A stretch of 41,912 nt of DNA. Source: an uncultured Bacteroidales bacterium (GTDB lineage Bacteria; Bacteroidota; Bacteroidia; Bacteroidales; UBA932). The notes beneath the pieces are model-generated. The model was given only the letters and a program-made list of their open reading frames with translations. It ran no database searches and was not told where the DNA came from. Shown here one piece after another: positions 20,459 through 23,004 of this stretch (positions within the stretch are counted from its first letter, which is position 1; each line of letters opens with the position of its first letter). A program made the translations under genes and the position numbers. The stretch is taken from assembly GCA_900316955.1 (NCBI GenBank), contig ONEX01000024.1, positions 1-41,912 on the forward strand, written 5' to 3'.

Positions 20459-22420
20459 CTATTCCTGGAACGAATACCCGAAACCGGGACGGGTCACGAT
20501 GCAGTCCGCGTAGGGGCCGATCTTCTTGCGGATGCGGGTGATGTTCACGTCCACGGTGCGGGCCGTCACGATGACGTCGTCGGGCCAGACCGCCGACAGG
20601 AGTTCCTCGCGGGAGAATACCTTGCCGCGGTTCTCCAGGAACAGTTTCAAGAGTTCATACTCGGTCTTGGTGAAGGAAACGACCGCTCCGTCCACACTGA
20701 TCTCCTTGGCGTCGGTGTCCATCTGGATGCCGCGGTAGCGGATGCCGTTGCGGATGGCGCCCAGGCGGGCCTCCACGACATTAATGATGTAGTCGCCGGT
20801 CTTCTCGCATTCGCTGAAAAGGTCCACGAACACGGTGCCCTTGTCGTAATCGTACTTGCGGGCGTCCAGGTTCTCGATGTTCTGGCGCTTGAGCGTGTTG
20901 CGGCAGGCATTGATCTGGCGTTCCAGGTCCTCGGAAACGCCGATCCCGAAGTCTTCCTTGTGCCCGGACAGGACGGTGTTCATCCGGATGAGCGCCTCTT
21001 CCACGAGCGAGAACATGCGCCGGATGCCTTCGTCCATTTCCGGCGTGAACTCGATCTTCGTCGCCCGCTTGCGGCGCAGGATGCGGGCCAGGTTGAAGCA
21101 GCTGTCGCCCACGGACTCGAGCTCCCCGATCTGGCGGAGCATCGCGCGGATCTTTTCCTTCGTGTCGTCGGACAGATGGGCCTCGCCGACGGCGCTCAGG
21201 TACCGGCCGATCTCGTTCTCCATCCGATCGCTGCCCTCCTCTCCCTTGCGGATGCGCTCGAAGAGCCTGCCGAAGGCCTGCTCGTCCTCCGTCGCGTACA
21301 TTTCCCGCACCTGCTCGAACATCCGCTGCGTGTTCTTGCCGAACACCGCAATCTCCTTCTGCGCCTGCAGGACGGAGATTTCCGGGGTGTTCATGATACC
21401 GACCCGGATGTACTGCAGCCGGAACGCGTCCTCGTCTTCCACCTTCTTGGGCTTGATGAGAAAGCACACCAGCTTCTCGATCTGCGGGATGAACCAGATC
21501 AGGATGGCCGTGTTGATCACGTTGAAGCACGTATGGAACGTCGCCAGGGCGAAGGAAAGCTGGGTGGGACTCTGCTCGGAGGCGTTGGGGTCCAGGCCCA
21601 CGATGCCGCACACCATCCGCACGAACGGGAAGAACAGGATGAGCACCCAGATTACGCCGAACACGTTGAACACCAAGTGCGCCATCGCCGTCCGCCGCGC
21701 CTGCGTGTTCGCGCTCAAGGCGGCCAGGTTCGCGGTCACGGTCGTGCCGATGTTCTCGCCCATCACCAAGGCGATGCCCTGGAAGATGGAAATCGCCCCG
21801 GTCGCGCACAGGACCATCGTGATGGCCATCAGCGCCGCCGAACTCTGCACCAGAGCCGTCAGGATCGTGCCGATGAGCAGGAACAGCAGGATCGTCCCGT
21901 AGTTCGTCTTGAAACTCGCGAAGAAAGCCACCACCTCCGGCTTGCTCGCGAGGTCCATCTCCACACCTGTCTGCTTGAGCATCCCCAGGGCGAACAGCAG
22001 GAAGGAAAGGCCGAAGAGGAAATCGCCGAAATAGCGGTGCTTGCCGATCTGGATCAGGATGATGCCGATGAGGAAGGCCGGCCACACGACATTGACCACG
22101 TTGAAGGAGAAGCCCGCCGACATGATCCACGCGCTCATCGTCGTGCCGATGTTCGCGCCCATGATGATCGAGATGGCCTGGGCCAGGGTGAGCAGCGCCG
22201 CGTTCACGAAGGACACCGTCATCACGGTCGTCGCCGCCGAAGACTGGACCGCGACGGTCACCAGCGCGCCGGTCGCCACGCCGGTGAACCGGTTCGTGGT
22301 CATGGCGCCGAGGAGGTGCCGCAGCTGCGGGCCCGCCATCTTCTGGAGAGCCTCGCTCATCATCTTCATTCCGAATATCAGGAGGGCGATCGAGCCCAGG
22401 AGCTTCAAGACAATCAGCAT
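20459..22420 (-). CDS. Na/phosphate symporter with PhoU domain fused to an OmpR-type DNA-binding domain
   Basis: The ATG at 22420 gives 653 residues; an upstream TTG at 22441 sits inside the -7 element and was rejected. Residues 1-325 form an NptA/PNaS-type symporter with the duplicated core: VAVQSSAATT near 57-65 and ALVQSSAALM near 189-198, each followed by a GANIGTT or GENIGTT motif (88-94, 221-227). About 345-555 are PhoU-like helices (LESVGDSCFNLARI, then ECEKTGDYIINVVEARLG), where related proteins normally end. Residues about 560-653 are instead a PhoB/OmpR winged helix: FTKTEYELLKLFLENRGKVF, then SREELLSAVWP, then TARTVDVNITRIRKKIG, then TRPGFGYSF. No receiver domain is present. It should import phosphate with sodium; the added domain suggests direct gene control from the membrane, as in CadC or ToxR, which is inference. 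Confidence 0.92.
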   Translation of the reverse strand: MLIVLKLLGSIALLIFGMKMMSEALQKMAGPQLRHLLGAMTTNRFTGVATGALVTVAVQSSAATTVMTVSFVNAALLTLAQAISIIMGANIGTTMSAWIMSAGFSFNVVNVVWPAFLIGIILIQIGKHRYFGDFLFGLSFLLFALGMLKQTGVEMDLASKPEVVAFFASFKTNYGTILLFLLIGTILTALVQSSAALMAITMVLCATGAISIFQGIALVMGENIGTTVTANLAALSANTQARRTAMAHLVFNVFGVIWVLILFFPFVRMVCGIVGLDPNASEQSPTQLSFALATFHTCFNVINTAILIWFIPQIEKLVCFLIKPKKVEDEDAFRLQYIRVGIMNTPEISVLQAQKEIAVFGKNTQRMFEQVREMYATEDEQAFGRLFERIRKGEEGSDRMENEIGRYLSAVGEAHLSDDTKEKIRAMLRQIGELESVGDSCFNLARILRRKRATKIEFTPEMDEGIRRMFSLVEEALIRMNTVLSGHKEDFGIGVSEDLERQINACRNTLKRQNIENLDARKYDYDKGTVFVDLFSECEKTGDYIINVVEARLGAIRNGIRYRGIQMDTDAKEISVDGAVVSFTKTEYELLKLFLENRGKVFSREELLSAVWPDDVIVTARTVDVNITRIRKKIGPYADCIVTRPGFGYSFQE

Positions 22421-22438: not shown

Positions 22439-22469
22439 CAAAGATACACCCGGCGGCCGTTTCCCTCAA
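22439..22469 (-). promoter_or_regulatory. Promoter of the symporter fusion gene
   Basis: On the minus strand TTG (22467-22469), a 20-base spacer and TATCTTTG (22439-22446) match the consensus exactly. The ATG follows 18 bases later at 22420. Confidence 0.75.
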
Positions 22470-22542
22470 GGGAAAAAAGCAATTGTAACAGAATTTTAAT
22501 GCCCTTTCCGGGGTTTGTAACCGCCTGGAAATCTCTTTTTGC

Positions 22543-22566: not shown

Positions 22567-23004
22567 ATGAAAAAGATGCTTCTCCTCACCTTAGTTTCCC
22601 TCCTTCTGCTGCTCACCGGATGCGCCCTCGGCCTCAATCAGGCGCCGAAAGCGGTCCGCCAGGCCTTCGATTCCCAGTTCCCCGGCGCCAGCCACGTGGA
22701 ATGGGAAAAAGTCCTGTCCACCTATAAGGCGGAGTTCTACCACGACGGACACGAGAAAGAAGCCCAGTTCGACAAGGACGGGACCTGGAAGCGCACCAAG
22801 ACGGAGCTCACCTTCCTCGACATTCCCGCCCCGGTGATGAAGGCCGCCCAGGAATACTGCGACTGGGAAATCGACGACATCCGCCTGTTCGAACAGGCGG
22901 ACGGCGTCCCCGCCTACTACCAGATCGAATACGACCGGGAGCATTCGGACCGCGAGAAGCAGCTCCTCCTGTTCCCGGACGGGACCCTTTTCACCGGAAT
23001 CTGA
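22567..23004 (+). CDS. PepSY-like (DUF2874) lipoprotein
   Basis: The 145-residue protein has a clear lipobox (LLLLLTGC, Cys19). The mature part shows the pattern of Bacteroidota PepSY-like proteins: PKAVRQAFDSQFPGASHVEW near 27-46, then an aromatic strand (YKAEFYHDGHEKEAQFDKDG) and a second half-repeat after IPAPVMKAAQEYCDWEIDD. The two similar halves fit the beta-lactamase-inhibitor-like fold. Function is unknown; such proteins sit in the periplasm or membrane and are often made under stress. It stands alone on the + strand, divergent from the symporter fusion, and its stop is three bases from the end of the convergent acid phosphatase gene. Confidence 0.8.
   Translation: MKKMLLLTLVSLLLLLTGCALGLNQAPKAVRQAFDSQFPGASHVEWEKVLSTYKAEFYHDGHEKEAQFDKDGTWKRTKTELTFLDIPAPVMKAAQEYCDWEIDDIRLFEQADGVPAYYQIEYDREHSDREKQLLLFPDGTLFTGI

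Follow-up and report, generated by a model that had tools for sequence, protein, structure and literature searches.

A Na/phosphate symporter fused to a PhoB-type DNA-binding domain in uncultured Bacteroidales, with a candidate operator in its own promoter

The fused gene and its domains

The window analysed here is a stretch of 41,912 nucleotides from an uncultured Bacteroidales bacterium. Its minus strand carries a single open frame of 653 amino acids that joins a Na/Pi symporter (PF02690), a PhoU domain and a PhoB-type winged helix (wHTH), in that order (Table 1). We place the start at the ATG at 22418-22420; a TTG at 22441, which would make the frame longer and overlaps with the -7 element of the promoter, is an unlikely start. 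The translation shows two QSSA motifs, and Pfam searches with the protein returned Na_Pi_cotrans in two stretches (1.7e-52), PhoU (1.7e-11) and Trans_reg_C at residues 580-651 (5.6e-22). In NCBIfam the last 94 residues were best matched by NF053854, Bacteroides PhoB, over its DNA-binding half (positions 134-225, 1.4e-36), and neither Pfam nor NCBIfam searches found a receiver domain in the frame. The transporter domain consists of two repeats over 325 amino acids, and by sequence the closest solved structures to this part are those of SLC34A2 (2e-14). Our structural evidence comes from one predicted model and one fold search. With the AlphaFold2 model as query, Foldseek placed the E. coli PhoB effector domain on top (1gxq, followed by 1gxp with pho box DNA) and also returned PhoU structures. 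A linker is almost absent from the model, in which the first strand of the wHTH begins about six residues past the last PhoU helix. In the membrane part the model is of low quality (block means of 39-63 for residues 1-110; pTM 0.43), and we therefore made no use of the placement of the wHTH relative to the transporter. The open frame, Pfam, NCBIfam and Foldseek thus confirm the description given in the earlier note, namely an uninterrupted symporter-PhoU-wHTH frame without a receiver.

Table 1. Features of the fused gene and its upstream region (window coordinates).
Feature	Position	Strand	Basis
Fused gene, Na/Pi symporter - PhoU - PhoB-type winged helix, 653 aa	20459..22420	-	open frame; Pfam
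First Na_Pi_cotrans repeat with first QSSA	21974..22384	-	PF02690, 2.7e-42
Second Na_Pi_cotrans repeat with second QSSA	21647..21889	-	PF02690, 3.2e-10
PhoU-like helical domain, about residues 346-553	20762..21385	-	PF01895 at 361-447; model helices; PhoU structures in Foldseek
PhoB-type winged helix, residues 560-653	20462..20743	-	PF00486; NF053854; 1gxq/1gxp
Recognition helix RTVDVNITRIRKKIG, residues 621-635	20516..20560	-	conservation; association with box
Promoter -7 element TATCTTTG	22439..22446	-	32 bp after 22-bp box, 18 bp before ATG
Possible -33 element, TTG	22467..22469	-	sequence; consensus
Pho-box-like candidate operator, two 11-bp direct repeats ATTAAAATTCT GTTACAATTGC	22479..22500	-	sequence comparison
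Divergent PepSY-like gene sharing the intergenic/promoter region with the fused gene	22567..23004	+	PF11396

The protein shares with NptA/SLC34 symporters that bear a PhoU-like C-terminal domain the duplicated PF02690, the QSSA motif in each half and the PhoU domain itself, but differs from them in the PhoB-type DNA-binding domain added after PhoU. Na/Pi symport is accordingly a prediction from domains and motifs. With PhoB of Bacteroides (NF053854) it has in common the C-terminal DNA-binding half and, by sequence, an operator of 11-bp direct repeats, although it lacks a receiver or phosphorylation site and is joined to a membrane transporter. CadC and ToxR have an N-terminal cytoplasmic wHTH, a single membrane helix and a periplasmic sensor. 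They resemble the fusion in placing an OmpR-type winged helix on a membrane protein, whereas the wHTH of the fusion is C-terminal (residues 560-653) and its membrane part is a multi-helix transporter. The fusion is therefore neither a member of the CadC/ToxR type, by its domain order and membrane part, nor a PhoB, since it has no receiver; by analogy it would be expected to function as a tethered form of each. One protein unites membrane segments and a DNA-binding domain, which is the architecture of one-component transmembrane transcription regulators, and we propose that it may regulate transcription from the membrane.

Distribution, selection and origin of the fusion

The closest named records of the fused protein come from uncultured Bacteroidales, many of them from rumen or other ruminant stomach samples. 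Among the best 80 of 573 loci the junction was open (fused) in 38, while 41 were plain, ending at 555-578 amino acids, and one was masked (L083). Our survey for fusions, which used an alignment spanning the junction (A1), identified them in 37 genomes in total, all from one Bacteroidales family and four genera. The genus sample had fusions in 13 of 61 genomes (one of these, G057, being a piece at a contig end) and the family sample in 30 of 299, across the four genera. A 31st match in the family sample, G299, proved not to be a fusion and has a separate PhoB. The sole match in a class-wide draw of 395 genomes was the window's own genome. This genome (G000) contains two fusions, the one in the window and another on contig C17 (about 45900-47850; L001, L097), a fused symporter with a diverged helix, RVVETYISRLRRKIG, and without the upstream box described below. 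The C17 copy may have a different target.

That the window belongs to a draft genome of 38 contigs might raise the suspicion that the fusion is an artefact of assembly or sequencing, but the identical junction is open in those 38 of 80 loci and 37 genomes, and dN/dS in the wHTH is low; the probability we attach to an artefact is negligible. The objection that a sequencing error had removed a stop codon between the domains, which the earlier note had raised against itself, fails for the same reason, since the junction is open in so many related loci.

The wHTH is under purifying selection. Comparing the window with its three nearest relatives gave a dN/dS of 0.015-0.037 for this domain; single close pairs reached 0.14-0.30, on few changes. 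Over usable pairs the medians of wHTH, membrane part and PhoU were 0.073, 0.062 and 0.09, respectively. The recognition helix RTVDVNITRIRKKIG is identical in 25 of the 57 fused loci with readable upstream DNA. Loss of this helix in close homologues had been named beforehand as evidence that would count against a DNA-binding role, and here the outcome is divided: the orthologue keeps the helix, while some of the more distant members and the C17 copy have diverged.

Three relatives retain nptA and phoB as separate neighbours, by gene calls made with a home-made script. In G028 (L130) nptA, phoB and a short kinase gene lie in a row, the first two sharing 4 bp; the order is the same in G004 (L131), with no overlap; and in G299 (L191) nptA and phoB are adjacent, so that a kinase gene follows the pair in two of the three. 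From these separate neighbours we conclude that the fusion probably originated by loss of PhoB's receiver; deletion of the phoB receiver from a neighbouring nptA-phoB(-phoR) pair would have given the fused gene. Full-length PhoB-like regulators, of which we found 26 at a score of at least 238 bits (20 of them exceeding the curated cut-off of 270), were present in 3 of the 37 fusion genomes (G029, G268 and G294) compared with 23 of 48 fusion-free genomes of the genus. Within the 61-genome set alone the figures were 1 of 13 and 23 of 48 (Fisher p 0.0099, a test that ignores kinship). PstB, searched at a threshold of 1e-60 only, reached the cut-off in 5 of the 61 genus genomes, none of them fusion-bearing. 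In the window's genome we found hybrid two-component receivers, a broken RprY-like gene and some weak matches, but nothing that matched PhoB over its full length. The earlier suggestion that the fusion replaces a PhoR/PhoB pair is supported by the 3 of 37 against 23 of 48 and by the persistence of separate nptA and phoB genes in relatives. The RprY-like response regulator lies behind a kinase gene (L090; G000 contig C1:1-3351), and its broken frame is perhaps an assembly error.

Fused and plain genes are interleaved on NptA trees, and the wHTH domain was lost repeatedly, in many relatives. Apparent deletion scars are seen in L085, which ends ARLG-YSFQE, and in L062, which ends ARLG-LGYSIDE, both resembling the final residues of the lost domain; in L080 there is a match past the stop codon, with no readable wHTH remnant. 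On whether fusion happened once or several times the evidence is divided: a single clade of fused wHTHs was not rejected (p-AU 0.299), yet L169 (G268), which has a shorter junction, groups with a separate PhoB at 99/83. Elsewhere in the genus phoBR often adjoins a PiT-like gene of about 730-750 amino acids (L134, L135, L136, L149, L177 and L182) or another NptA, and such phoBR and PiT-like loci may represent a comparable transporter-PhoU-PhoB link in separate genes. Our PiT inventory at 1e-20 missed PiT-like genes visible in L134, L135 and L149, and its blanks, that for G000 included, are therefore no proof of absence.

A candidate operator upstream of the fused gene

We take TATCTTTG to be the -7 element of the fused gene by the Bacteroidetes consensus TAnnTTTG, and the TTG upstream is possibly its -33 element, likewise by consensus. 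Further upstream lie the two 11-bp direct repeats, within which ATTAAAATTCTGTTACAATT is the 20-mer at 22481-22500 (minus strand) used for our comparisons. A 2015 review describes the PHO box unit as 11 nucleotides, with 7 conserved and 4 less conserved bases, arranged in direct repeats (PMC4415409), and the repeat at 22479-22500 fits this layout by its sequence. A box matching at 15 or more of the 20 positions was found upstream of 29 of 57 fused genes versus 1 of 41 unfused genes (Fisher 7.6e-8, which ignores kinship), the fused rows being non-redundant by their last 100 upstream bases only. Among the 'unfused' rows are L083, in which the tail is masked; L002, from a different NptA subfamily; L131, a plain NptA next to phoB; and L140, a fragment from G043, in which the gene is fused. 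Shuffled upstream DNA reached 15 of 20 in 2 of 1960 cases. The box is thus absent from 28 of the 57 fused genes, and its presence follows the recognition helix: 26 of 29 fused genes with the canonical helix have it, compared with 3 of 28 with a diverged helix. The canonical helix occurs with no box in L011, L034 and L044, and the upstream region of L011 differs from those of its near-identical relatives.

A footprint test in which promoters were anchored on the -7 element alone, thereby avoiding selection by the box, gave a similar picture. In the canonical-helix genes (n=29) the two 7-bp cores were 0.64 and 0.65 identical versus 0.34 for the flank; the values were 0.32 and 0.33 versus 0.25 for the 21 of 28 diverged-helix genes that have a -7 element, and 0.29 and 0.27 versus 0.25 for 34 of the 41 plain genes. 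These associations of the box partly reflect shared descent. Over independent pairs (96 of 98 rows used, 81 after removal of near-copies) helix and box agreed in 2.9 of 5 and were opposed in 0.1 on average, and presence of the wHTH agreed with the box in 0.7 of 6, numbers of pairs that cannot reach significance.

Two further elements were noted in these upstream regions. An extra half-site, GGTTACAA, lies at about 22515-22523 of the window (minus strand), roughly 32 bp upstream of the second repeat, and TTACAA or TTACTA stretches at the corresponding place in relatives resemble it. In L144, L145, L146 and L208, whose recognition helices read K(V/A/I)VD, an altered box, GTTGATAA, stands before the gene; its distance to the -7 element is always 47 bp, except that L146 has two copies, the first of them at 57 bp. 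It is possibly an altered operator, but we treat it merely as a lead since the four promoters look related.

The association of box and helix bears on the explanation that the box is read by another regulator and that the fused wHTH is decaying or merely a structural passenger. Repeated loss of the domain, the fused copies with diverged helices and no box, and the co-occurrence of PhoB-like regulators in 3 of 37 fusion genomes would all agree with a passenger; the low dN/dS of the wHTH, the company that the box keeps with the canonical helix, and the lack of a full-length PhoB match in the window's own genome speak against one, and we judge it quite unlikely.

The distance from the end of the box to the -7 element is exactly 32 bp in 27 of the 29 box promoters and 31 and 33 bp in the other two. 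It is kept in L141, even though only 4 bp, not 18, separate the -7 element from the start codon there, and is also 32 bp in the nptA-phoB promoter of L131 and the phoBR promoter of L134; other phoBR loci either have their closest -7 match 37-51 bp away from the box or lack one nearby. This geometry is relevant to the idea that the fused wHTH represses its own gene, a tethered negative feedback that would limit transporter synthesis. The box does sit in the gene's own promoter, and PhoB activates or represses according to the position of its site, as stated in PMC10294691. However, the box is upstream of the core promoter at the spacing shared with L131 and L134, which fits contact with the polymerase better than blocking, and we consider repression unlikely.

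In the 3.13-Mb genome of the window, the single site matching the 20-mer at up to three mismatches is the fused gene's own promoter, although a control with the reversed pattern also gave one. The PhoN-like (PAP2) phosphatase gene nearby, which the earlier note had put forward as a target, is left unsupported by this result; of 114 redundant fused ORFs 10 have a PAP2 gene no more than 6 kb away, almost all of them from the nearest relatives, and of 71 unfused ORFs none does. The divergent PepSY-like gene is a possible second target, and such a gene is near 21 of the 114 redundant fused ORFs versus 0 of the 71 unfused ones. In 16 fusion genomes we counted 9 exact 18-mer sites, 8 of which were own promoters of fused genes. 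At one mismatch or fewer there were 38 sites, 11 of them own promoters (in 11 of the 16 genomes), versus 34 in the reversed control, and on these numbers a wide regulon was rejected. Inspection by eye of five sites other than own promoters (L222, L224, L229, L236 and L237) recognised no phosphate gene; that in L222 (G001) stands directly before a frame of 158 amino acids. Regulated proteolysis of membrane factors is known, and the wHTH might be freed in this way to act as a soluble factor, perhaps on genes beyond its own. The wHTH follows the last PhoU helix with hardly any linker, and sites at one mismatch or fewer outside own promoters are no commoner than in the control (27 versus 34), so that we regard release by proteolysis as very improbable.

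Of 27 loci scanned in relatives, 17 had a 15/20 match between genes beside phoBR or its phosphate transporter (a scan run with no shuffle control). L185 has its match immediately ahead of phoB, in a predicted frame that is doubtful; the match in L175 precedes a fused gene, and 8 loci were without a match. Exact 18-mer sites numbered 9, in 8 of 20 PhoB-holding genomes (1 in the control; 12 genomes had none), and 6 of the 9 were at phoBR or an adjoining PiT gene. With sites at phoBR in relatives that have PhoB and at the fused gene's own promoter in fusion genomes, where that site stands out, the repeat appears to behave like the PhoB operator of this Bacteroidales family.

A proposed tethered activator of its own gene

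We propose that the protein is probably a Na/Pi symporter with a captured PhoB DNA-binding half, a one-component regulator that stays tethered to the membrane while it activates its own gene. What computation supports is the domain architecture and how widely it occurs, the selection acting on the wHTH, the gene pairs of relatives, and an operator-like repeat that keeps a fixed distance to the -7 element and is associated with the helix; that the protein binds DNA, that it activates and does not repress, and that phosphate controls it through PhoU are what we infer. The wHTH would bind the pair of 11-bp direct repeats in its own promoter, 32 bp from the -7 element, and would then help to recruit RNA polymerase in the manner of PhoB. 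Uptake or phosphate status would reach the DNA-binding domain through PhoU, which adjoins the wHTH and would take over the role of kinase and receiver: with plentiful phosphate the PhoU domain would hold the wHTH in a non-binding state, and a drop in uptake or cytoplasmic phosphate would release it, so that more transporter is made. PMC4415409 describes DNA binding by the isolated PhoB effector domain as constitutive, and restraint of the wHTH by PhoU or by the state of transport is for this reason the step to prove. We also lean, with somewhat less assurance, towards a more general statement: that a secondary transporter has become the dedicated transcription factor of its own gene, with carrier, sensor and activator in one polypeptide and one strong operator in the genome, having arisen by collapse of nptA-phoB-phoR, with helix and operator kept or lost together.

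A precedent for collapse only is Rsp of Neisseria gonorrhoeae, which PMC10269533 presents as a chimera of the PilS receptor and the DNA-binding part of PilR. Here too a two-component pair is collapsed into one membrane-bound DNA-binding protein, but its membrane part is the receptor of a sensor kinase and not a transporter. In the open-access PMC literature, judged mostly from search listings, we recognised no paper describing the fusion of a PhoB-type domain to a transporter.

The way in which phosphate transporters and PhoU signal to PhoB is a long-standing question, and the 2015 review gives the sensor component for phosphate scarcity as unknown (PMC4415409). With transporter, PhoU and the PhoB DNA-binding domain in one chain and no kinase or receiver between them, the effect of PhoU becomes testable in a single protein. 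If our proposal is true, a two-component pathway would here be reduced to one protein and one promoter, in a single bacterial family in which the separate-gene, fused and secondarily lost states are all extant.
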